IMG/VR virus record: IMGVR_UViG_3300018019_000034
Coordinates: 1-22,422 of that record
Length of the DNA: 22,422 nt
DNA from: a virus
Strand: one strand, 5' to 3'
This document shows, one piece after another, positions 8,393 through 18,586 of the stretch. Under the pieces are notes generated by a model that ran no database searches, was not told where the DNA came from, and saw only the letters and a list, made by a program, of their open reading frames with translations. Made by a program: the position numbers and the translations under genes. Position 1 is the stretch's first letter. Each line of letters begins with the position of its first letter.

Positions 8393-8677
8393 TTAACTAT
8401 AAAATTTGTTCCCATTAATTTTATCAAATAAATCTTTTTCATAACCAGTAAATTTTCTTTCATCAAGAAATGATTCTATCTTCACTTTTACTTTCTTATC
8501 ATTCAACCATTTTTTAGGAGCATCTTTAAATTTAGGTTCTTCACCAGTAGCAGTTGCTTGAGCAACAATAAGACCATTTGCCATACCATGCATATATGGG
8601 TCGTAATCATAATTTCCTTTTGAACTAGCTATGTCTACAAGATTCTTTAAATCATCTATAAATTTTTTGAATGTCAT
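8393..8677 (-). CDS. Small array protein with capsid-targeting-like N-terminus
   Basis: 94 residues of unknown function. The N-terminus MTFKKFIDDLKNL resembles the tag shared across this array, although the Glu at the possible cleavage position is Asp. The middle, DPYMHGMANGLIVAQATATG, then KFKDAPKKWL, is a pattern I recall from conserved phage hypothetical proteins with no known role. ATG 8677 overlaps the stop region of the preceding gene as TAATATG, with no ribosome site, which suggests translation by re-initiation. Last gene of the array before 15. Confidence 0.7.
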   Translation of the reverse strand: MTFKKFIDDLKNLVDIASSKGNYDYDPYMHGMANGLIVAQATATGEEPKFKDAPKKWLNDKKVKVKIESFLDERKFTGYEKDLFDKINGNKFYS

Positions 8678-8678
8678 A

Positions 8679-9089
8679 TTAATCGAATAGATTACTATCT
8701 ACCTTTATTCTAAAATCATTTTTCATATATTTTTTAACATTAGAATTATTTTTAACAATATTTTTTATTCGTTCTACTTCTTGTTGTGTTAAATCTGCTT
8801 GTTTCCAATCCCAAAGACTAATCTCTACTAATTTTGTTCTAGGAAATAAAATAATTGAAATAGCACCATTCTCTTTATTCTTATTCATACGATTCATTAC
8901 AGGTTCATGAATTGTTTCAGTTTCACCATCCCATGCAAATAAATCGCCCTTTTTATCAAGAATAGCTCTAACTATTTTTGGATTATTTTTAGGCTCACCT
9001 GAAGTTGGATTTAAAAACACTTCAACTATTTGACCATTTAATTTATAGGTGTTATAATATTCTTCTTCTAAATAATCTTTAAAACTCAT
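8679..9089 (-). CDS. EEYxNxxK-family array protein with capsid-targeting-like tag
   Basis: 136 residues. The tag MSFKDYLEE is followed at once by the domain EEYYNTYKLNGQIVEVFLNP, then AILDKKGDLFAWDG, a strand VEISLWDW, and C-terminal VKKYMKNDFRIKVD. The same blocks occur in the C-terminal half of the gene at 13613-14332 and in the broken gene at 14686-15149, so this is a small expanded family of about 125 residues. Alternating strands with a central 'VRAILDKKG.LF.W' hairpin suggest an alpha/beta domain. No catalytic motif is seen. Ribosome site AAGG precedes ATG 9089. Function unknown; likely made late and packaged if the tag is real. Confidence 0.75.
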   Translation of the reverse strand: MSFKDYLEEEYYNTYKLNGQIVEVFLNPTSGEPKNNPKIVRAILDKKGDLFAWDGETETIHEPVMNRMNKNKENGAISIILFPRTKLVEISLWDWKQADLTQQEVERIKNIVKNNSNVKKYMKNDFRIKVDSNLFD

Positions 9090-9097
9090 ATTCTACC

Positions 9098-9484
9098 TTA
9101 TACATGATTACCATCACCAACTGCTACAGATATATTATTTAATAATCCTTCTGTTATAACTTTACCCATAAAACCTCTCCATTTTTCTAATTTATTAGGT
9201 TTTGTTATAACACGATAATAATATCTTTTCATTCTTGCCGTAAACAACCATTCATTGCTTCGATATCTTGGGAATTCCAAAAATATTATACTAGATAAAA
9301 GATTTAATATAAAATCTAATGGCGCAAAAATTCCTAACAAAGTATAACCAAAATATTTTGCTAATCCTTTTAATTGTCCAATGGCTTGAACTTTTTGTAG
9401 AGCCATAAGCGCACAAAAACCAACCCAAACAATAAAACAAAATCCTACAAATCCAATTATTGTTTTAAATATTATTTCTAACAT
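9098..9484 (-). CDS. Membrane protein, conserved in phages, unknown function
   Basis: 128 residues. Two hydrophobic segments are visible, at about residues 5-30 (IIFKTIIGFVGFCFIVWVGF) and 45-70. The second half has the pattern LEFPRYRSNEWLFTARMKRY, then EKWRGF, and ends GDGNHV; I recall 'FTAR..R ... WR ... D..G.H' as a conserved signature of small phage membrane proteins without a role. It lacks the tag found on the neighbours, so it is probably a different kind of cargo. ATG 9484 directly follows the previous stop (TAAATG) and has an AAGGAGA site. Confidence 0.7.
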   Translation of the reverse strand: MLEIIFKTIIGFVGFCFIVWVGFCALMALQKVQAIGQLKGLAKYFGYTLLGIFAPLDFILNLLSSIIFLEFPRYRSNEWLFTARMKRYYYRVITKPNKLEKWRGFMGKVITEGLLNNISVAVGDGNHV

Positions 9485-9796
9485 TTACTTCTCCTTATCA
9501 TATGGTTCTAATAAATCTTCAGTCCATCTTATTTTAGGTCTTCCAGATTTATCTTTCCAAATTACACAATTTGATGTTGGAGGTCTTTCTATAACTAATC
9601 TATATACCCAAAGTCCTTCTCTATTTTTTCCATCGTTATTATCTATAATAAAAAATTTATTTTTAGCTATTTTATGACCATATTCACCACTCAATATTAA
9701 TGGAGTAATACCATTTTTAGGTTTAACCCTAGAACCATTTGGAAATTTGGGAGGATTATCAAATAAATCTTTTCTTTCATATTCTTCAAAATTCAT
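9485..9796 (-). CDS. LFDF-family small protein
   Basis: 103 residues. The N-terminus MNFEEYERKDLFDNPPKFP combines a tag-like start with the LFDxPPKF box that opens the LFDF family in this array (also at 12469, 13243, 13613 and 14322). After the box come a basic strand GSRVKPKNG, then EYGHKIAKNKFFIIDN, WVYRLVIE and a closing WTEDLLEPYD, matching the family order 'GDxVKI ... YG ... YYRL ... W.E.DLE'. The short alternating strands suggest an SH3-like barrel; that is inference. ATG 9796 has an AAGG site nine bases upstream. Most divergent family member. Confidence 0.65.
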   Translation of the reverse strand: MNFEEYERKDLFDNPPKFPNGSRVKPKNGITPLILSGEYGHKIAKNKFFIIDNNDGKNREGLWVYRLVIERPPTSNCVIWKDKSGRPKIRWTEDLLEPYDKEK

Positions 9797-9798
9797 TT

Positions 9799-10974
9799 TT
9801 ATGCCTTGTATTGTCTCTCTTCATTATATTTAATAACTCTATTTTCTGGATATTTTTCTGTATTATATTCAGCTTTAACTTTTGCTAAAATCGTATCTTT
9901 ATTGCCATTAATTACTGAACCAACAATCTTAGCATAAAGATTGTTTGAAAAATCAATATCAGCTTGAGTTACAGGTGGTTCTATCTTCATCATATTTGCT
10001 TCACCTACTTCAGAAACAAACATACCTGTATAGAATCCTTTTAATTTATTGTGTTCAACATATTTATCAGCATTACACCAAATGAAAATACTATTATCTT
10101 TTTCTTCTAAATATTTAGCTAAACTATCATTTATAATAAGACCATAACCACTACCGAATAATCCAGAGGGGCCGCCATGACCCATCATAATAATTCTATC
10201 ATGTTTTTGAATAGCTTCTATCATATCGGCAGGAGAAGCAGCTTTATGAAGAATATCAGCTTTTAAATTAGCATAAATTGGCTTTAAGAAATCTGTAGTC
10301 TTATCAGTCATGTGAATAACTAAATTAGGATGATTATATTCAACTTTTGCATATTCAATTTTAGTATATTCTTTAAAAGTTCGTCTTTGTTGCTTCATGA
10401 ACTTCTTATAAAATTTTCTATCCTCTTTAGAAAAATCATCCCAATATGGAGGTTTGCCAGTTTTTTCTAAACTCTTAGCTCTTTCAATACCTCTATCTTT
10501 ACCTTCTTGATATTCCTTCCACCAATCATCATATGAAAAATGGTCGGTATCTCCCTTTAGGTAATCCTGATATTGTTTACTATCCCACCATTTTTCTTCT
10601 TTCTTTGCCATAGGTTCTTCTTTCTTTGGATTACTCCCTAAATGATTTACTCTATCATACCAATGACTGTGTGCTTCGAAATAGGTTAATTGACCTTTTT
10701 CATATGCTTGATATTCTGGACTACCTTTCCAATTATCTTTACTTTGCAAAAATTTATGTTTTTGTTCATCTTCTACATCATCAATAAAATCTGTAAAACG
10801 AGCAAATGATTGTTTACCCCATTTACTAATATCTTTATCGGAACCAGTAAAAAGATTTTTATTCTTTAGATTTTTATATTTTTCAATATAATCATCAACT
10901 TTAGCAGGGTCTGCACCTGTTCTTATCCATTTACTTTTAACGTCTTTGAAATTTTCTAATAAGAAATTAAACAT
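9799..10974 (-). CDS. Putative caspase-like (clan CD) cysteine peptidase, array protein
   Basis: 391 residues. Residues about 25-66 (VDDYIEKYKNLKNKNLFTG, then DISKWGKQSFARFTDFIDD) match the same region of the protein at 11469-12479. A middle segment, 80-200, is Lys/Tyr/Trp-rich with near-repeats (EYQAYEKGQLTYFE; QYQDYLKGDTDHFSYDDWW). The C-terminal domain has DRIIMMGHGGPSGLFGSGYG with His266 and NSIFIWCNADKY with Cys300, each after a hydrophobic strand, the arrangement of the His-Cys dyad in caspase, gingipain and CHAT folds. LKGFYTGMFVSEVGEA follows. I recall similar GHG/WC domains in bacterial hypothetical proteins. The N-terminus MFNFLLENFK is a weaker version of the array tag. ATG 10974 overlaps the upstream gene and has AGGGAT. 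The peptidase role is inferred, not certain. Confidence 0.6.
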   Translation of the reverse strand: MFNFLLENFKDVKSKWIRTGADPAKVDDYIEKYKNLKNKNLFTGSDKDISKWGKQSFARFTDFIDDVEDEQKHKFLQSKDNWKGSPEYQAYEKGQLTYFEAHSHWYDRVNHLGSNPKKEEPMAKKEEKWWDSKQYQDYLKGDTDHFSYDDWWKEYQEGKDRGIERAKSLEKTGKPPYWDDFSKEDRKFYKKFMKQQRRTFKEYTKIEYAKVEYNHPNLVIHMTDKTTDFLKPIYANLKADILHKAASPADMIEAIQKHDRIIMMGHGGPSGLFGSGYGLIINDSLAKYLEEKDNSIFIWCNADKYVEHNKLKGFYTGMFVSEVGEANMMKIEPPVTQADIDFSNNLYAKIVGSVINGNKDTILAKVKAEYNTEKYPENRVIKYNEERQYKA

Positions 10975-11479
10975 TTTTATCCCTTAAATAATCGGTTATT
11001 CTTTCTTCTATCTTTTTCTTTTTCTTTTTGTTATATCTGTATAGTTTGTCATTTGCATACATAGGAACATTGTTCTTACCCATTTTTTTAGAACTAGTTC
11101 CTATCTTAGAATCCATATCAACTGGACTTGCATAAATCGAACCAGTTATATTTCCACCACCTGTACCGGCTCCTGCTAATGCATCTTCCTCAATTTTCTT
11201 CTTTTTCTTCTTAATCAAAGGTCTACGAAATTGTGTTCCAAAATAATCTTTATATGTTGCAACATCTGAAGTGGTCGTAGCAGGAGCATTACCAACAGGT
11301 GCATCTTCTTTTAAATGAAGCATCCTTTTGAGAACCGTAACAACTTCAGGATAGAATTTTGGACTTGATACTCTTGTAGATTTAAGAACAGCTTCTTTTG
11401 CCTCTTTCCATTTCTTTTCAATATCTTCTATTGATTTACCTGTTTCTTTTGCATATTTTCTAACGATACTACTTGGCAT
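10967..11479 (-). CDS. Lys-rich array protein with repeated K6-IEE motif
   Basis: 170 residues. The N-terminus SIVRKYAKETGKSIEDIEKK, then WKEAKEAVL, is a helical pattern I recall from several T4-like phage hypothetical proteins. Two nearly identical motifs, KKKKKKIEEDA (about residue 92) and KKKKKKIEER (about 150), flank a Gly/Ala/Ser-rich linker with SPVDMDSKIG. The IEE and LKED sites fit the loose [LI]-x-E rule of the T4 prohead protease. Low complexity and high charge resemble scaffold or DNA-binding internal proteins. It overlaps its upstream neighbour by 11 bases and its downstream neighbour by 8, with an AGGAT site, so translation is coupled. Function unknown. Confidence 0.75.
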   Translation of the reverse strand: MPSSIVRKYAKETGKSIEDIEKKWKEAKEAVLKSTRVSSPKFYPEVVTVLKRMLHLKEDAPVGNAPATTTSDVATYKDYFGTQFRRPLIKKKKKKIEEDALAGAGTGGGNITGSIYASPVDMDSKIGTSSKKMGKNNVPMYANDKLYRYNKKKKKKIEERITDYLRDKNV

Positions 11480-12479
11480 TTTTTCTTATCCTTCCGGTTC
11501 TAATGTTCTTATCTACAATCTTTACATCACCTGCAATATCGGCATCACCACTAATAACCGAATCACCTGAAATATGAGCATCACCGTGAATCCTAGCATT
11601 ACCTTTTATCTTGGCATTTCCTGAAATAAAACCATCACCATAAACCATTGCTTTATCATAAACCCAACAATTTCCTTTACCTATATTATTGGTATTGGAA
11701 ACATAACCACCCATTTCACCTTCACGAACATCACCAAAATCTTTAATTGCTTGAATTCTATAAAGATTATATTCTTTACCGTTATCGTCTTTAACAGATT
11801 TATCAGAATGAAGACTTGCTAATTTAAATTTACTCTTAAAAGTATTTACTGTTTTGAAAATATTCCTATTTATATCAAAGGTATCCCAAATCCAATTAAT
11901 TTCGCTCAAATGAGGTTGTCCATCAACCCCATACATATCATACATTGCTTTGTTATCAGCAGACCAAACCGAATGAATCTTATGTGTTCCAAATTCTGAA
12001 GGCATAACAATAACTGCAATTTTTCTATATTTTTCATCAACATCATCTGATTTAGATATTATATAATAAGGAGTTACGCCATTAATATCTACATAATCTT
12101 CCCAACTTCTACAACCTCTTTCACTCCTAGCAGAAATACACCATTTCGTTCCAGTTCCTAATTTTGCTGATGCTTCATAAGTTTTTGGCAAATAAACGAT
12201 ACATTTGGAATTTTCAAATACAACATCTGCTTTGGTTTTCTTCTCTTTTGACTCTTCTCTTGATTCTCTTTTTTTATTGTGTTCATCAACAAATTTTTTG
12301 AATTCGCCAAAAGATTTCTTTAACCACATATAAATATCATTATAAGGTGGTTTAATAATTTGTTCATCTTTTAATGTTTTGAATAATTTAACATATTTTT
12401 TAATTTCATCATCAGAAACTTTATCAGAACCCCATACATCTGTGGTAGAATTTTCTCTTATATATTGTTTAAAATTCAT
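11469..12479 (-). CDS. GTKWC-motif protein with C-terminal hexapeptide beta-helix
   Basis: 336 residues in three parts. Tag MNFKQYIRE, then a helical module (24-66) shared with the caspase-like protein at 9799-10974. The middle has AKLGTGTKWCISARSERGC (106-123), WEDYV and HSVWSADNKAMYD; I recall the 'G.GTKWC' motif from many phage proteins of unknown role. The C-terminus, FGDVREGEMGGYV, then GNCWVYDKAMVYG and NAKIKGNARIHGDAHISGD (270-322), repeats every six residues like left-handed beta-helix proteins. Ribosome site: none strong; ATG 12479 lies 11 bases inside the preceding gene, so coupling is likely. Cys114 and nearby His/Asp residues could be catalytic, but that is a guess. Confidence 0.72.
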   Translation of the reverse strand: MNFKQYIRENSTTDVWGSDKVSDDEIKKYVKLFKTLKDEQIIKPPYNDIYMWLKKSFGEFKKFVDEHNKKRESREESKEKKTKADVVFENSKCIVYLPKTYEASAKLGTGTKWCISARSERGCRSWEDYVDINGVTPYYIISKSDDVDEKYRKIAVIVMPSEFGTHKIHSVWSADNKAMYDMYGVDGQPHLSEINWIWDTFDINRNIFKTVNTFKSKFKLASLHSDKSVKDDNGKEYNLYRIQAIKDFGDVREGEMGGYVSNTNNIGKGNCWVYDKAMVYGDGFISGNAKIKGNARIHGDAHISGDSVISGDADIAGDVKIVDKNIRTGRIRKNAK

Positions 12480-12807
12480 TTAGGTCTACCACCTTTTCCA
12501 AATTATCTTCTGGAAAATATACATAAGATTCTCCATCACCATTATTAAAAACATTTTCAATACTTTTATGAACTAAAAGGAAAGAATAATCTGTTCTAAC
12601 ATTTGGTTTAAGATTATTCCTACTAAGTTTATAAAAACATCTATCACTTTTATCTTTTCTTACTTCAACAACTCTTCCATATGGAGGAATATTGTCTAAA
12701 GTGACACCACTATTTTGTTGTTGTTCAACATTAATACCAAGTATTTTTACTATATCTCCCTCTTCAAAATTTCCGGGGAAATCAAATAAATGTTTTTTCT
12801 GTTTCAC
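12469..12807 (-). CDS. LFDF-family small protein
   Basis: 112 residues, starting at GTG 12807 because AGGAG lies eight bases upstream within the end of the GNAT-like gene. KKHLFDFPGNFEEGDIVKIL is the family box, followed by PYGRVVEVRKD, CFYKLSRNNLK and a closing YFPEDNLEKVVDL. The GDIVKI ... YGRVVEV ... YKL spacing resembles small SH3-like or KOW-type barrels. No metal site or catalytic motif. It lacks the F-x-x-F-[IL]-x-E tag seen in neighbours; the short MKQKK precedes the box directly. Function unknown. Confidence 0.75.
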   Translation of the reverse strand: MKQKKHLFDFPGNFEEGDIVKILGINVEQQQNSGVTLDNIPPYGRVVEVRKDKSDRCFYKLSRNNLKPNVRTDYSFLLVHKSIENVFNNGDGESYVYFPEDNLEKVVDLNEF

Positions 12808-12809
12808 TT

Positions 12810-13238
12810 TTAACTCCTTTCAAATGAATAATAAATGAAATCTTTTTGGGGGTCATTATATACTTCTTTGAAACCAGATTTCATATGCGCTTTAACAGAA
12901 GGAACATTGACTTTAAATACTTTTGAGAACAAGGTTTTAATACTTAAATCTTTCATCATAAGATTTACAAATCTTAGAAACATATTCTGATTTCTAAACT
13001 TTGGGTCTACAACAATTTGTAGAAAAGGAAAATTACCGATGATAGTAATTCCTATAGCACCTATTTTTGTATCATTGGAATCAAGAACGGTATAAACTTC
13101 ATATTTATAATCTTTTCTTTTAGCCCAACCAAAACCACCTAAATCTTCAGGGTCAATACTCTTTATATAAGCCATATCAGCTTTTCCGAGTTTCAATCCA
13201 TCTATTACATCTTCGTTTAAAAATTGTTTAAATTTCAT
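12810..13238 (-). CDS. GNAT-like acetyltransferase with capsid-targeting-like tag
   Basis: 142 residues. Tag MKFKQFLNEDVIDG at the N-terminus. The body has GNAT order: strands YKYEVYTVLDSNDTKIGAIG (43-62), PFLQIVVDPKFRNQNMFLRF with the acetyl-CoA-contacting 'V.P..R....' region (70-90), a helix FVNLMMK, then FKVNVPSVKAHMKSGFKEVY, the typical 'N..A...Y.k.GF' end. The usual R/Q-x-x-G-x-G/A loop is weak (RNQNMF), so cofactor binding is not assured. If packaged and injected it could modify a host protein, as T4 Alt and the internal proteins do. Ribosome site is weak (GGTAAT), close behind the previous stop. Confidence 0.65.
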   Translation of the reverse strand: MKFKQFLNEDVIDGLKLGKADMAYIKSIDPEDLGGFGWAKRKDYKYEVYTVLDSNDTKIGAIGITIIGNFPFLQIVVDPKFRNQNMFLRFVNLMMKDLSIKTLFSKVFKVNVPSVKAHMKSGFKEVYNDPQKDFIYYSFERS

Positions 13239-13242
13239 TTTA

Positions 13243-13611
13243 TTACCAAATAAGATTATCTGTTTTATTTCTTGGATATTGTTTCATCCATTGTTCTTTT
13301 GTTTCTTCATCTACTTTACTTAAATCATCTTCACTAAAATATTCTTTATTATTTTTATCAATAGAATTTTCATTTTGCATTACACCCATACCGCCTTGAG
13401 GAAATTGGATTGGTCTTATCGTATAATGATTTATTCCAGAATCTCTATAATCTTTCCAAAATGAAAAAATATAACCATAAGGTTCTGTTTCTTTTAAATT
13501 TTTATGAGAAATTTTTATATTATCTTTAATTCTTATAATTTCTCCAACTCTAAAAATTGGTTGGAAATCAAAAAGATTTTTTTCTTCTCTTATGTAACGA
13601 TAACTTTCCAT
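13243..13611 (-). CDS. LFDF-family small protein
   Basis: 122 residues. I start at ATG 13611, which overlaps the preceding stop region as TAATATG with AGGATG upstream; a longer frame needs a TTG at 13632 inside the preceding gene. N-terminus MESYRYIREEKNLFDFQPIF joins a tag-like start to the LFDF box. Then VGEIIRIKDN, PYGYIFSFWKDYRDSG, HYTIRPIQ and YFSEDDLSKVDEE follow the family order. The gene lies next to the fused two-domain member at 13613-14332, so a local duplication is likely. Function unknown. Confidence 0.72.
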   Translation of the reverse strand: MESYRYIREEKNLFDFQPIFRVGEIIRIKDNIKISHKNLKETEPYGYIFSFWKDYRDSGINHYTIRPIQFPQGGMGVMQNENSIDKNNKEYFSEDDLSKVDEETKEQWMKQYPRNKTDNLIW

Positions 13612-13612
13612 A

Positions 13613-14332
13613 TTAATGCATCCTATGTTCAATACCGACTTTAAATTTATTCTGCATATACTGTTTAATATGATTATTATTTTGAACAGTATATTTTAAT
13701 TGAGCTACAAAAGATGAATCACCATGTAAAGCCGTATCTATATCCCACATAGAAAGGTTTATTTTAAGATTATGAAAATCTTCCATATGAAAATATAAAC
13801 CAATATTACCACCATCAAATAAATTCAAACCTAATAATCTTGACATTTCTTTATGAAGCAGATTACCTTCCCAAACATATAAATTTCCTTTTCTATCAAG
13901 AATACCACGAACTTCTATTACATGTTCAGGTTCGGTTGATTTAGGATTTTTATATACTTCTACTGTTTCTCCTTCATGTTTAAATGAATTAAAATATTCC
14001 TCATTAACATTTTCTAATTCTAATTCACTTTCAAAAAATTTTACTTGTGACCATTTTATCAATCCATTTCTTCTCCAATTTTTAACTAATAAATTATAAC
14101 CATTTGGATAAGGAGAAAGTCTATAATAATTTTCAGAAGATTTTTTATTTTCTCCTTGTTCATGAGGGTCGCCATTTATATCATAAATTTTAGCTAAATT
14201 TTGTTCATAAGGATGTTCATTAAGCCATACATTTTTATTGTTAATTTTTACTATATCACCCTCTTCAAACTTTGGTGGAAAGTCAAATAAATGTCTTTTT
14301 TCTCTTTCATCTATGAATTTTTTAAATTTCAT
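13613..14332 (-). CDS. Fusion of LFDF and EEYxNxxK domains with capsid-targeting-like tag
   Basis: 239 residues. Tag MKFKKFIDE, then the LFDF domain (about 13-110: HLFDFPPKFEEGDIVKINNK, AKIYDINGDPHEQG, YYRLSPYPNG, SQVKFFESELELENV). It passes directly into the EEYxNxxK domain (about 115-235: EEYFNSFKHEGETVEVYKNP, VRGILDRKGNLYVWEG, LKINLSMWDID, IKQYMQNKFKVGIEH). Upstream lie separate genes for each domain, both broken (14322-14656 and 14686-15149), so this gene may be a fusion of the same pair. No catalytic motif. ATG 14332 overlaps the end of the broken gene by 11 bases; only a distant GGGGAAG is available, so coupled translation is likely. Confidence 0.78.
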   Translation of the reverse strand: MKFKKFIDEREKRHLFDFPPKFEEGDIVKINNKNVWLNEHPYEQNLAKIYDINGDPHEQGENKKSSENYYRLSPYPNGYNLLVKNWRRNGLIKWSQVKFFESELELENVNEEYFNSFKHEGETVEVYKNPKSTEPEHVIEVRGILDRKGNLYVWEGNLLHKEMSRLLGLNLFDGGNIGLYFHMEDFHNLKINLSMWDIDTALHGDSSFVAQLKYTVQNNNHIKQYMQNKFKVGIEHRMH

Positions 14333-14656
14333 CTTCTTGAATTACTTCCCCTTCGTCCTTTGTTAATCTATCTTCACCAAATGAAACATCTTTTATTGTT
14401 ATTCTTCTATTATCACCATGATATATTACTGTGCCTTTAGAAGAAGAAAATTTATCTTCAGGCCAAATTCTATATTGATTTCCATCAACATAATCATCAT
14501 AGTGAAAAACATTTATATCACAAATTATACCTGTATTAAGATTGTATAAATTGCTATTAAAATATAACTGTCCAAAACTATCACTAATTTTAACTCTATC
14601 TCCTACTTTGAACTTGGGTGGAAAATCAAAAAGATTTTCTTTTCATAAGTTTCCAT
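14322..14656 (-). pseudogene. LFDF-family gene with a frameshift near its start
   Basis: ATG 14656 has a good AGGAG site and begins METYEKK, but that frame stops after 17 codons. A second frame, open without a stop from AAT 14636 to TAA 14322 (104 codons), reads NLFDFPPKFKVGDRVKISDS, TGIICDINVFHYDDYVDG, QYRIWPEDKF and so on, clearly an LFDF-family body. It has no start codon before the box. Adding one A in the AAAA run near 14638 would give METYEKKNLFDF, which matches the N-terminus EEKNLFDF of the neighbouring member at 13243. So either a one-base deletion broke the gene or ribosomes slip back one base at the A-rich site. No canonical slippery heptamer is present in the zero frame. A sequencing error is also possible. 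Confidence 0.7.
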
Positions 14657-14685
14657 ATTAAACTCCTATTCATCAATTTTGTATA

Positions 14686-15149
14686 TTATACCATTTTTTC
14701 ATCCATTTGTAAAGCTTTTTCTTCTTCATTTAACACAAATTGTTTAAAGGTTGATTCGAAAAATGTATGGTCAAAACCAACAGAATAATCCTTTGTTCCC
14801 ATATATTTTTGAACCCATTTATTATCTAAAACAGTATCATAATCTTCATTATGATGTTCTTTAAAATATTTCATACTATATACAAAATAACTAATATCAA
14901 CTTTATTCAATCTTGGATATAGTATAGATAAAGAAAAATTGGATTCTTTTCATTTAATTTTTTCTTTATATCTCCATGTAAAGCATACTTCTCACCTGAC
15001 CAAACATATAAACCAGTTTTGGTTAATATACCTCTATCATATTCAATTCGTTTACCGAAATGTGTTCCAACTTCTTCTTTAGTTGGATTCTTAAAGATTT
15101 CGATATCTTCATTATTTAATTTAAATGCATTGTAAAATTCTTCGTTCAT
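14686..15149 (-). pseudogene. EEYxNxxK-family gene split by a frameshift
   Basis: Two abutting frames together make one family member. The first (14907-15149) starts MNEEFYNAFKLNNEDIEIFK, continues RGILTKTGLYVWSGEKYALH and stops after YLYYIQD. The second (14686-14910) continues NKVDISYFVYSMKYF, then NKWVQKYMGTKDYSVGFDH, matching the C-terminal blocks of the intact relatives (LKINLSMWDID and IKQYMQNKFKVGIEH). Its only local start is a TTG and there is no ribosome site. One missing T at about 14910 would restore IQDLNKVDISYF. The tail contains STFKQFVLNEEE, which looks like the array's N-terminal tag placed at a C-terminus. The call of a frameshift rests on homology with the two intact copies. 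Confidence 0.68.
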
Positions 15150-15161
15150 TTCTTTATATCT

Positions 15162-15731
15162 TTATGTAATGAATTCCTCTACTTTATTGAAAACATATTT
15201 ATGAATATTAACTTCTTCTTGTGGTAAAAGATTTCTATAATTTTTTAATCTTTTCATTGTTATTTTTTCTAATATATTAACATCGTCAACATTACCTTCT
15301 TCTGCCATAACATTTGCTAAAACATATAAAACTAAAGCACCAACAAATTCATAATTATCTTCAAGTTTTTTAATTGAATCAAATTTATTAAACCAATCAT
15401 TTGTCATATAAATTTGAACTAAATCAACTGGATTTCTCCAAGTAATTCCATTAAGATGTTGCATATATATTTTATGATAACTAGACCAATCACCACCACT
15501 CATTTTTTCAATAAATCTTGGTATATCAATTGTCTTACCTTTAAATTTGAAAGTTTTGAAATCAAATAAATTTTTTTCTTCACCTTTATATTCATATTTC
15601 TTTTCATTAAGAAAACTTTTAAAATCAGATTTAGCCAATACTTTTGTCTTGCATCTTTTACAATAAGGATGACCATTCTTTAAAATAATTCTATCTGATT
15701 TTTTACACTTCTTACATTTTGGAATAGCCAT
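15162..15731 (-). CDS. Zinc-ribbon protein with internal tag and LFDF box, unknown function
   Basis: 189 residues, from ATG 15731, which overlaps the stop of gene 14 as TAATG with GGAG upstream; an in-frame TTG nine bases earlier has no better signal. Residues 1-30 carry a zinc ribbon, CKKC then CKRC with NGHPY between. Residues about 36-45 are SDFKSFLNEKK, the array's tag motif placed inside the protein, then GEEKNLFDFKTFKFKGKTID. The remainder is helical (YEFVGALVLYVLANVMAEEG, MKRLKNYRNLLPQEEVNIHK). It looks as if a zinc ribbon was joined in front of a tagged array protein. First gene of the array, co-translated with the late neck gene 14. Confidence 0.72.
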   Translation of the reverse strand: MAIPKCKKCKKSDRIILKNGHPYCKRCKTKVLAKSDFKSFLNEKKYEYKGEEKNLFDFKTFKFKGKTIDIPRFIEKMSGGDWSSYHKIYMQHLNGITWRNPVDLVQIYMTNDWFNKFDSIKKLEDNYEFVGALVLYVLANVMAEEGNVDDVNILEKITMKRLKNYRNLLPQEEVNIHKYVFNKVEEFIT

Positions 15732-16372
15732 TATTCCCAATCTCCATAGGGGCTAGTGTCGCCTTCCTTCTGAACAGATATACCGGAAATTTCAACTTGA
15801 TTAGCACTATTATCATCATATTCAAGTGGGTCAATTTCAGGCCATCCGGGAATTGCTAATTCATTATCACCTGAAGTCTCTGTAGTAAGCATACCACCTT
15901 CCACATCTGCTGCTTGAACATGCATACGATATGTCATTTTCTTCTGAAGGAAAACATTATCTTCTTGTTCAACAGTTGTAATAATATAAACACGATTTTG
16001 ATATTTTACCCAAATATAATCTCCTGCTCTCGGCATAACATCAGGTTGAACACCGCTATCATCGAAACCGACACCATTCAAAGTTCCCATTGCATCATAG
16101 AATTGTTGATGTGATATAATGATATCCATAGCATCAGGAGATTGAAAATTAAATTTATTGAAGATATAAACTTCCTGAATAACTTGAAACCATGCTTTCA
16201 AAGGAAATTTGGCTACAAAAGTTGGAAATGGGTCTTCCTCATAAAGTTTATCTTTAGAAGGGTCACGATTTGCTCTCCAAAATTCTATATCATATCCATA
16301 CTTTGTTATTGCCTCTGTCAAAAATCCTTGATATAATTTCTGTTCAGAAGGAGAATTAAATCTAAATCCCAT
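15731..16372 (-). CDS. 14: Neck protein, gp14 family
   Basis: 213 residues; T4 gp14 has 256. The best match to T4 gp14 is the N-terminal block: SEQKLYQGFLTEAITKYGYD and KLYEEDPFPTF, against T4 'FIHSLVTESIDVFGYDV ... NELFGEDPFSRF'. A beta-rich middle (VMPRAGDYIWVKYQNRVYII) fits the family's barrel. The protein builds the neck with gp13 after packaging. Gene order 13-14 agrees, with a GIY-YIG gene wedged between. ATG 16372 lies 11 bases inside the end of the GIY-YIG gene, whose last codons supply the GAGG ribosome site. Confidence 0.82.
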   Translation of the reverse strand: MGFRFNSPSEQKLYQGFLTEAITKYGYDIEFWRANRDPSKDKLYEEDPFPTFVAKFPLKAWFQVIQEVYIFNKFNFQSPDAMDIIISHQQFYDAMGTLNGVGFDDSGVQPDVMPRAGDYIWVKYQNRVYIITTVEQEDNVFLQKKMTYRMHVQAADVEGGMLTTETSGDNELAIPGWPEIDPLEYDDNSANQVEISGISVQKEGDTSPYGDWE

Positions 16373-16982
16373 AATTCACCTCTTTTATTTTTCTTTTTTC
16401 ATTTTGTTTTTTTAAATGAATTATTAATTTTTCACTACAAGTTCTTCCTATTTTATAACCTAAATTTTCATATTCTATTATTTTTTCTTTTGGAATTCTT
16501 GTATTTAATTTTCCATCGGTCATCCATTTATAACCATTAATATGATTTATACCTTCATTCCATGTTTTTTTACCTTTATTCCCTAAACTAACAGCTTTTT
16601 TAACTTCATCTGTTCTTGGTATTCCTTTATTCCACGGAATTTTACCTTTACCTTTTTCACTCATTTTCTTTTTAATTTCATTTATATTTGGATTAAAAGT
16701 TAATGTATCTCCACCACTTCCACCTGTCGCTATATTATAATTATCATCTTTTTTACAAAAATCTTCATTTACAATTTCAGCTTCTTTATCTGACATTTCT
16801 TTTTCATTATCAAAAATAAAAAGAATTTCTTTCTTGAAATTTTCTATTCCATTCTTTTTAATAGCTCTTTTTAAAATTTTACCAGAACCCATATATCCAT
16901 CATTAATATCATAAGTTCTATGCATACCAATATAAATTTTATTATTTATTAAATTTGTTATTTTATATAATATATAATTCAT
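16362..16982 (-). CDS. GIY-YIG homing endonuclease with NUMOD-like C-terminus
   Basis: 206 residues. The N-terminal nuclease domain has ILYKITN and KIYIG (the GIY and YIG elements, residues 4-19), then DGYMGSGKILKRAIKKNG and a helix with EAEIV carrying the expected metal-binding Glu. The C-terminal half has KGKIPWNKGIPRTDEVKKA and KGKKTWNEGINHINGYKWM, repeated 'W(N)KG' DNA-binding modules of the NUMOD3 type. T4 Seg proteins are similar free-standing endonucleases. It is inserted between neck genes 13 and 14, starts seven bases after the stop of 13 (no clear ribosome site) and overlaps the start of 14 by 11 bases. Confidence 0.9.
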   Translation of the reverse strand: MNYILYKITNLINNKIYIGMHRTYDINDGYMGSGKILKRAIKKNGIENFKKEILFIFDNEKEMSDKEAEIVNEDFCKKDDNYNIATGGSGGDTLTFNPNINEIKKKMSEKGKGKIPWNKGIPRTDEVKKAVSLGNKGKKTWNEGINHINGYKWMTDGKLNTRIPKEKIIEYENLGYKIGRTCSEKLIIHLKKQNEKRKIKEVNYGI

Positions 16983-16986
16983 TTTA

Positions 16987-17775
16987 TTATGCCATAAAAA
17001 ATCCTAATGGCTCTCCTTCTGTTTTTATAAGTTCCTCATAAAGTGCGTTTTTTTCAGCAGTACCTTCCGCAATCATATTAGCATAATTAAGGATTGCACC
17101 ACCTGGGATTGTCATACCTGAATATTTGCCCCAAACAGTTCCTAATGCTATTTTACACAATGCAACAGAATATCTCTTTACCCAAAGTTCATTATAGATA
17201 TCTGAATCCCCTGTTCCGGGGTCATATTGAGTATAACATTCTACTACACCTACGAGTGGGAATATCATATCTCCATTATCATAAGGTGTTGGTGTTACTG
17301 TTAAAGTTTGGTCATATTTATTATAATGGATAGAGAATGGAGCAGTTAATTCCAATTCAGTTTGTCTCAAATATTCCAAACCAACTTCATATGAAACTAA
17401 TCCACTACCAAATGTTCCAGAGAAGAAGTTTAAGAAACCCATATTATACATTTGGTTTAAAGGAGAGAAAAGTGTATTGATACCTTCACCGATTGTTTGG
17501 CTTGTATCCATAGACATAACGGAAACAGTTTCAGGTGGAACAGAATATTCACTAACACCACCTGATAATACAACAACAAAAGCATTACGATAAACAGCAT
17601 CACCAGCATGACGATTAAACAATTGCATCGTATCATCAATAGCTGTATATATTTGTTCTAATTCAATTTCAATGTCAATAACAGGTGCGCCTAATTTGAC
17701 TTGAATATATTTTGCTAATTGTTGTCTATTTCGTGGATAACCACCACCAAAATTACCTGCAAGTGGAAGTGACAT
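16987..17775 (-). CDS. 13: Neck protein, gp13 family
   Basis: 262 residues; T4 gp13 has 309. The N-terminus YPRNRQQLAKYIQVKLGAPV, then IDIEIELEQIYTAIDD, follows T4 '[29 protein letters not shown]'. The C-terminus ELWVKRYSVALCKIALG, MTIPGGAILNY, AEKNALYEELIK and PLGFFMA follows T4 'NRWVKDYATALAKELNG ... MMLPGGVTIDG ... EKEALREEL ... PFGILVG'. The central loop is shorter than in T4. It closes the filled head with gp14. ATG 17775 has AAGGAG. It shares an operon with the ClpP-like gene. Confidence 0.92.
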   Translation of the reverse strand: MSLPLAGNFGGGYPRNRQQLAKYIQVKLGAPVIDIEIELEQIYTAIDDTMQLFNRHAGDAVYRNAFVVVLSGGVSEYSVPPETVSVMSMDTSQTIGEGINTLFSPLNQMYNMGFLNFFSGTFGSGLVSYEVGLEYLRQTELELTAPFSIHYNKYDQTLTVTPTPYDNGDMIFPLVGVVECYTQYDPGTGDSDIYNELWVKRYSVALCKIALGTVWGKYSGMTIPGGAILNYANMIAEGTAEKNALYEELIKTEGEPLGFFMA

Positions 17776-17785
17776 AATAATCTCC

Positions 17786-18520
17786 TTATCTTCTTAATTG
17801 TTCTTCAGTATATTCTAACAATTTTGCCCAATTTGCATCAAATATTTCATCTGCAAATCCTATTTCTACAGATTCTTTAGCTGTTAAATAAACTTCTTCT
17901 TTTTCATTCATTTTACTCTTTAACCAATTAGTAATAACTTTTTCTGATTTGTTTTTAAATTTTCCATTTTCTTTCAAAGATTTTACATAAATATCTAACA
18001 TTGTTTTAGAAGCAATTCTTCCAAAATCAACATAACTTCTTACACTTTTTTGTGTTCCAGAAACATAATCAGTTCCATCGTGAATCATAAAATATGAATT
18101 AGGCATGAGGACTCTTTTATTTGCAGCTTGTAAAATTAAAGAACTCATAGACCGAGCATGAGTATAAGAAAGAATAGTTACTGGATTTGGACAACTTTTT
18201 ATAGCATCGTATATAGCCATTCCTTCAGTCCAAAAACCTCCACATGTTTTCATATGAATTAGAATAGGTTTTTTTGAATTAATTCTCATGCATAAATTTA
18301 AATTTCTTATAAACCTATTTGCAATCACATATTCTATACCTGGTTCTCCTAAATCTAACATTTCATTAGAACCAGCAGTATATGTTTCTGCACCAAATAA
18401 AAATATTTGATTTGATGAAAGATTTAAATCATATTCATGAGTTTGTTGAACAATGTCTAAATCAGCTTTTTTAACTTTAAGAGTATGGTCTAATGCATAA
18501 TTTTGTTCTGTTTCGCTCAT
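17786..18520 (-). CDS. ClpP-like serine protease
   Basis: 244 residues. The ClpP fold shows in order: LIHMKTCGGFWTEGMAIYDA (oxyanion Gly-Gly and helix), ILSYTHARSMSSLILQAA with nucleophile Ser124, PNSYFMIHDGTDY with His147, and LTAKESVEIGFADEIF. By alignment the catalytic Asp position of ClpP falls on Asn205 (KSKMNEKEEVYL), so activity may rest on another residue. Phages use ClpP-like enzymes as prohead proteases or regulators; its place just upstream of the neck genes under a late promoter hints at assembly. I start at ATG 18520 (GGGAG upstream), not 18556, because the longer frame runs through the late promoter and into the terminator. Confidence 0.8.
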   Translation of the reverse strand: MSETEQNYALDHTLKVKKADLDIVQQTHEYDLNLSSNQIFLFGAETYTAGSNEMLDLGEPGIEYVIANRFIRNLNLCMRINSKKPILIHMKTCGGFWTEGMAIYDAIKSCPNPVTILSYTHARSMSSLILQAANKRVLMPNSYFMIHDGTDYVSGTQKSVRSYVDFGRIASKTMLDIYVKSLKENGKFKNKSEKVITNWLKSKMNEKEEVYLTAKESVEIGFADEIFDANWAKLLEYTEEQLRR

Positions 18521-18537
18521 ATATACTCCCTCAATAT

Positions 18538-18545
18538 TATTTATA
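18538..18545 (-). promoter_or_regulatory. T4-type late promoter TATAAATA
   Basis: Exact TATAAATA on the minus strand, starting the ClpP-like/13/14/array/15 operon. The expected start lies about 12 bases before ATG 18520, and the leader contains GAGGGAG. It follows a terminator within about ten bases, the same layout as at 728-770. Confidence 0.75.
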
Positions 18546-18550
18546 TAAAC

Positions 18551-18586
18551 ACACAAAAAGCCGATAGTTTTATAACTATCGGCTTT
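18551..18586 (-). terminator. Intrinsic terminator between accessory genes and neck operon
   Basis: A perfect stem of 13 bp (AAAGCCGATAG at 18557-18567 with CTATCGGCTTT at 18576-18586, extended by two T-A pairs) and a 4-base loop. On the minus strand it is followed by TTGTGTGTTT. Because the arm also has AAAA on the outside, some function on the plus strand is possible. The core GATAG/CTATC is shared with the terminator at 737-770. Confidence 0.85.

Follow-up and report, generated by a model that had tools for sequence, protein, structure and literature searches.

Caspase-fold proteases are effectors of both bacterial immunity and animal cell death. The leader that targets proteins into the head of phage T4 follows the pattern aromatic-x-x-Phe-Ile-x-Glu. 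Ten residues of this leader are sufficient, with positions 4 and 7 serving in targeting and positions 8 and 10 in processing (PMC9026906). The leader is the only feature common to the T4 internal proteins, which are diverse defence proteins (PMC3012670). A survey that compared 224 jumbo phages proposed that patchily distributed phage peptidases target host proteins, and it does not contain the word "caspase" (PMC7824862). Our own literature search for phage-encoded caspase-like proteins, whose coverage was incomplete, found, among the papers it listed, no report of the domain family described here.

Genomic Context of ORF 9799-10974

The DNA analysed here, referred to as the window, is a virus record of 22,422 bases. 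Its large terminase is of the T4 type, with an identity of about 40% to cyanophage gp17 across 85% of its length. An 8.3 kb part of the window (10034-18362) also occurs, at 99.98% identity, in contig JACTVF010000081.1, which is assigned to a Methanoregulaceae MAG of the SPRUCE peat site; this stretch is most likely the same phage, misbinned. ORF 9799-10974 belongs to a cassette of 14 small genes placed between packaging and tail genes (Table 1). The genes flanking the cassette are ones that we tentatively take, from gene order, to be T4 gp14-like and gp15-like. The ORF has a good ribosome site, AAGGGA (10980-10985), five bases upstream of its ATG, and it overlaps the upstream gene by eight bases.

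Several other products of the window were recognizable. A cassette protein (12810-13238) resembles GNAT acetyltransferases (PF13302, E 6.8e-5, narrowly short of the cut-off) and begins with the strict targeting-like sequence MKFKQFLNE. Four cassette proteins (12469-12807, 13243-13632, 13613-14332 and 9485-9796) have LFDF or LFDN followed by PxFxxG near their N-termini, perhaps representing a shared small domain. A ClpP-type protease (17786-18556; PF00574, E 3.2e-20; head maturation protease in PHROGs) is encoded in a T4-like gene order, and genes that by sequence are GIY-YIG- and HNH-homing-endonuclease-like (16362-16982 and 1908-2240) lie between structural genes.

Table 1. Features of ORF 9799-10974 and its gene cassette, in window coordinates.
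Feature	Position	Strand	Remarks
Cassette of 14 small genes	8393..15740	(-)	Five with [FY]xx[FY][IL]x[ED] among their first 12 residues
ORF, 391 codons, ATG start	9799..10974	(-)	N-terminal module, spacer and predicted C-terminal caspase-fold domain
N-terminal module, residues 4-73	10756..10965	(-)	Common to phrog_28193, phrog_17056, ORF 11469-12479 and SCTP-2 proteins
FLLE, residues 4-7	10954..10965	(-)	May end a short leader for capsid targeting (weak)
Lys/Trp/Tyr-rich spacer, residues 74-213	10336..10755	(-)	Predicted helical, much at low confidence
Spacer near-repeat, copy 1, residues 77-105	10660..10746	(-)	
Spacer near-repeat, copy 2, residues 124-152	10519..10605	(-)	
Predicted caspase-fold domain, about residues 214-391	9802..10335	(-)	Family alignment, model (pLDDT 92.5) and fold comparison
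HxxD (His221, Asp224)	10303..10314	(-)	After the first strand; invariant, also kept in bacterial copies L088 and L089, both very distant; possible substrate-pocket role
His266, predicted catalytic	10177..10179	(-)	In MMGHGG, after strand 260-264; invariant
Cys300, predicted nucleophile	10075..10077	(-)	In FIWC, after strand 295-298; invariant

The N-terminal module is shared with the next gene but one, and it recurs, followed by a KWCT-type domain, in several proteins of the giant Salicola phage SCTP-2. The spacer had been described as rich in Lys, Trp and Tyr with near-repeats, and this proved real in the form of one near-repeat, whose score of 53 compares with a shuffle mean of 27 and was reached in 1 of 2000 shuffles. 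A model of the full-length protein was confident in the C-terminal domain only, with the remainder predicted to be helical at lower confidence. The fusion of the domain to the module and spacer was seen only in the window's copy. Scans of viral contigs with the terminase and with the N-terminal module identified no sister phage with which to compare the cassette.

Predicted Fold of the C-Terminal Domain

The original prediction was of a C-terminal domain with the His-Cys layout of clan CD peptidases, and the sequences MMGHGG (His266) and FIWC (Cys300) were found as claimed, each directly after a beta strand in the model. An AlphaFold2 model of the domain, built from 27 sequences, had a mean pLDDT of 92.5 and a pTM of 0.87. 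The order of its elements is strand-helix-strand-helix-strand-His-hairpin-helix-strand-Cys, as in clan CD, such that His follows strand 3, Cys follows strand 4 and His precedes Cys in both sequence and strand order. In the domain model, the strands that immediately precede His and Cys span residues 56-61 and 91-95, which correspond to 260-264 and 295-298 of the full-length protein.

By itself, Foldseek found no PDB match to the model at E < 0.001, and its best rows were mixed Rossmann-like proteins. We aligned the model with VIA-align 2 to 1000 chains from the Foldseek listing, and 49 of the 50 best rows were caspase-fold proteins; the one unrelated row had a Z of 7.6. The best match was SAVED-CHAT (PDB 8tl0; Z 11.2, 151 residues, 2.8 A), followed by gingipain RgpB and separase (Z 9.5 each), and then by human separases and caspases (caspases about 8). 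Flavodoxin and dehydrogenase chains, which had stood high in the Foldseek ranking, were outscored by caspase-fold chains. Searches of PDB sequences with phmmer and with profiles returned chance matches only (a glutamate receptor and ribosomal S12). Based on the confident model and the VIA-align result, the domain is predicted to have an alpha-beta-alpha fold of the caspase/gingipain type with the clan CD arrangement of His and Cys. By implication from topology and alignment, the two residues would also be near each other in space. The structure prediction and fold search thus bore out the likeness to caspases, gingipains and CHAT proteins that had been proposed, and we consider a caspase (clan CD) fold for this domain to be almost certain.

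None of four named clan CD families gave a significant match when profiles were compared. Neither CHAT (PF12770) nor Peptidase C14 (PF00656) was matched in searches; the hhalign probability was 0.05% for CHAT, at control level, and 6.7% for C14, with reversed controls at 2.3-2.4% and a register in which the His positions coincide and so do the Cys positions. Peptidase C25 (PF01364) also had a probability of 6.7%, over 8 columns only (GHGGxxGL), and Peptidase C11 (PF03415), for which the test profile held five C11 sequences only, had 0.14%, equal to its reversed control. These results indicate that the domain, while modelled in the clan CD fold, is a family of its own and not a member of CHAT, C14, C11 or C25.

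Extent and Conservation of the Family

Searches with the C-terminal 174 residues (the family core being 180 residues) identified the domain at 56 loci in viral contigs and, besides the window's own copy, at 10 further bacterial loci, most of them on contigs from Bacteroidota MAGs. It has no model in Pfam, PHROGs, NCBIfam or PADLOC. The C-terminal domain is thus part of a family that has had no name so far and that occurs in numerous phages as well as in bacterial operons resembling defence loci. A caspase-like peptidase had been called a rare idea for a phage; this does not hold for the domain, with its more than 50 viral contigs, and perhaps holds for the fused form. The other family copies that were read stand alone and are about 180-225 residues long; most of them start at or near MKTLIIHP. 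One further member (L166:2498-3046; LGHGSDKGLF, IWCHADKF) is on an unverified human gut "Bacteriophage sp." scaffold, which has a PP2C-like phosphatase gene in the same stretch and is perhaps bacterial DNA.

The window's domain is 38-49% identical to the other rows of a 27-row alignment, and 34-49% identical across the sequences of all the conservation checks (27 rows, 31 rows and 73 copies). Invariant in the 27 rows, among others, are HxxD, GHG with His266, FIWCNADK with Cys300, GMF.SE and a C-terminal N..Y, and most of FIWCNADK is conserved across family sequences. The conservation of His266 and Cys300 is beyond chance, as both are invariant in the 27 rows and likewise in the 31 rows, and both are kept in all 73 copies (48 distinct), which were selected by the HxxD motif alone. 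Even the two very distant bacterial copies, with which little else is shared, keep HxxD, GHG and SC. HxxD is possibly part of the substrate pocket. In a tree, the window's domain had a long branch and no neighbour with support, so that the tree favours neither a phage nor a bacterial copy as its source.

Bacterial Relatives

At two bacterial loci (L164, 4043-9156, and L165, 5272-10354), a distant caspase-fold gene is the last of an operon that also encodes a C5 cytosine methylase, a GHKL ATPase and a regulator-like protein. The GHKL ATPase is distantly similar to the BbrUII/HgiDII restriction family and has a histidine-kinase-like end. PADLOC gave no match for either the ATPase or the caspase-fold gene at these loci, and we regard the operon as a candidate defence system. 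In another contig (L058:6235-8540), a family member follows an IetA-like AAA ATPase after 23 bases. IetA belongs to a known defence pair, IetAS, in which its partner is a subtilisin-like protease. Two family copies at a further locus (L064) are near TIR-like proteins, and copies at two others (L066 and L060) are near VWA proteins. The phage copies, for their part, are found among small accessory genes. The proximity of bacterial relatives to the C5 methylase and GHKL ATPase, to the IetA-like AAA ATPase or to TIR proteins suggests that the family has a role in phage-host conflict, and we take the bacterial copies to be the most informative guide to function.

Possible Packaging into the Phage Head

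A strict [FY]xx[FY][IL]x[ED] N-terminus was found in 5 of the 14 cassette proteins versus 0 of 21 others (Fisher p 0.006; 0.13 expected). The five leaders (MKFKKFIDE, MKFKQFLNE, MNFKQYIRE, MSFKDYLEE and MTFKKFIDD) have the motif at the spacing of the T4 leader. ORF 9799-10974 has the weakest motif of the cassette set, a short form of seven residues, MFNFLLE, which lacks an aromatic residue where T4 has residue 4 of its leader and matches the T4 leader in its last four positions only, FLLE. In addition, LxE is conserved at the same point in the SCTP-2 homologues of the N-terminal module, so that the MFNFLLE match may reflect plain homology of the module rather than a leader. No T4-gp21-type prohead protease was identified within the 22 kb fragment. 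Overall, packaging of this protein into the head is plausible, and we would put it at neither better nor worse than an even prospect.

Proposed Function and Alternatives

Our best explanation is that ORF 9799-10974 encodes a caspase-fold (clan CD) cysteine endopeptidase that comes from a previously unnamed family and is fused to an N-terminal module. Its N-terminus would direct it into the phage head, where a prohead protease encoded outside the window would trim it after FLLE, and it would be injected together with the phage DNA. Cys300, activated by His266, would then cleave one or a few host proteins, for example a defence or transcription protein. The chances that this explanation is right as a whole seem evenly balanced. 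Taken singly, activity as a peptidase is probable, and action on a host protein falls a little short of an even chance. Based on the bacterial gene neighbourhoods, the accessory-gene setting in phages and the jumbo-phage peptidase survey, it appears most likely that the protein is a protease with which the phage contends against its host, and that in this phage it is perhaps delivered along with the DNA.

It is possible, if rather unlikely, that the enzyme is active and is not packaged, but is made during infection and acts on host proteins from within the cell, with the N-terminal module serving in binding or folding. All the other phage copies found are standalone domains without a leader, which also counts against our best explanation, and the SCTP-2 proteins that share the module have no known role. 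However, the cassette neighbours of ORF 9799-10974 have targeting-like N-termini and lie between packaging and tail genes.

That latter position would also suit a peptidase of virion assembly, one that cleaves phage head or tail precursors and not host proteins, and in jumbo phages the well-conserved peptidases have been interpreted as maturation enzymes (PMC7824862). We consider this improbable. At the loci seen, the neighbour clusters of the standalone relatives share nothing with the structural genes of the window, and the bacterial relatives are in defence-like operons, not in phage structural ones.

The caspase fold is known to have been kept by proteins that are not active peptidases, Raptor being a precedent, and the phage domain could similarly be a pseudo-peptidase used for binding. 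The invariance of His and Cys in 73 of 73 copies, the distant bacterial pair included, makes this very improbable. Still harder to credit is a Rossmann-like three-layer domain outside clan CD, as the mixed top rows of Foldseek and the lack of a profile link to named families might suggest, because VIA-align on the same chains strongly favoured caspase-fold proteins across almost the entire domain and His and Cys are at the clan CD positions.

A more far-reaching reading is that the caspase-fold protease enters the host together with the DNA of a T4-like phage and cuts immune proteins before these take effect, and that it comes from a family which Bacteroidota employ in methylation-, AAA- or TIR-linked conflict operons of their own; we offer this tentatively, as doubtful. 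A conserved, unnamed family across large phages, with one form perhaps carried in the virion, would place a caspase-fold enzyme on the attacker's side. The family also offers assayable proteins with invariant predicted catalytic residues, and a bacterial gene neighbourhood that can be tested for defence.

Comparison with Known Systems

The T4 internal proteins and Alt are carried in the head and have a short leader that is cut off by the prohead protease, and the motif in the cassette has the same spacing. The T4 proteins differ in being inhibitors or of unknown role, with Alt an ADP-ribosyltransferase, and to our knowledge none of them is a caspase-fold peptidase. Caspases and separase (C14, C50) share the predicted fold (Z 7.4-9.5), and the C14 profile pairs the predicted catalytic residues, although at a probability of only 6.7%; the phage domain is also smaller. 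SAVED-CHAT is the best structural match over its 151 aligned residues, but the identity is 12%, profile similarity to Pfam CHAT is lacking, and the phage protein is without SAVED or another recognised sensor domain. Gingipain RgpB (C25) is a secreted multi-domain protease that is 10% identical to the phage domain, with a profile match of 8 columns only. The two nevertheless align with a Z of 9.5 and have the string GHGGxxGL in common, and the His-Cys spacing is 34 in the phage protein and 33 in RgpB.
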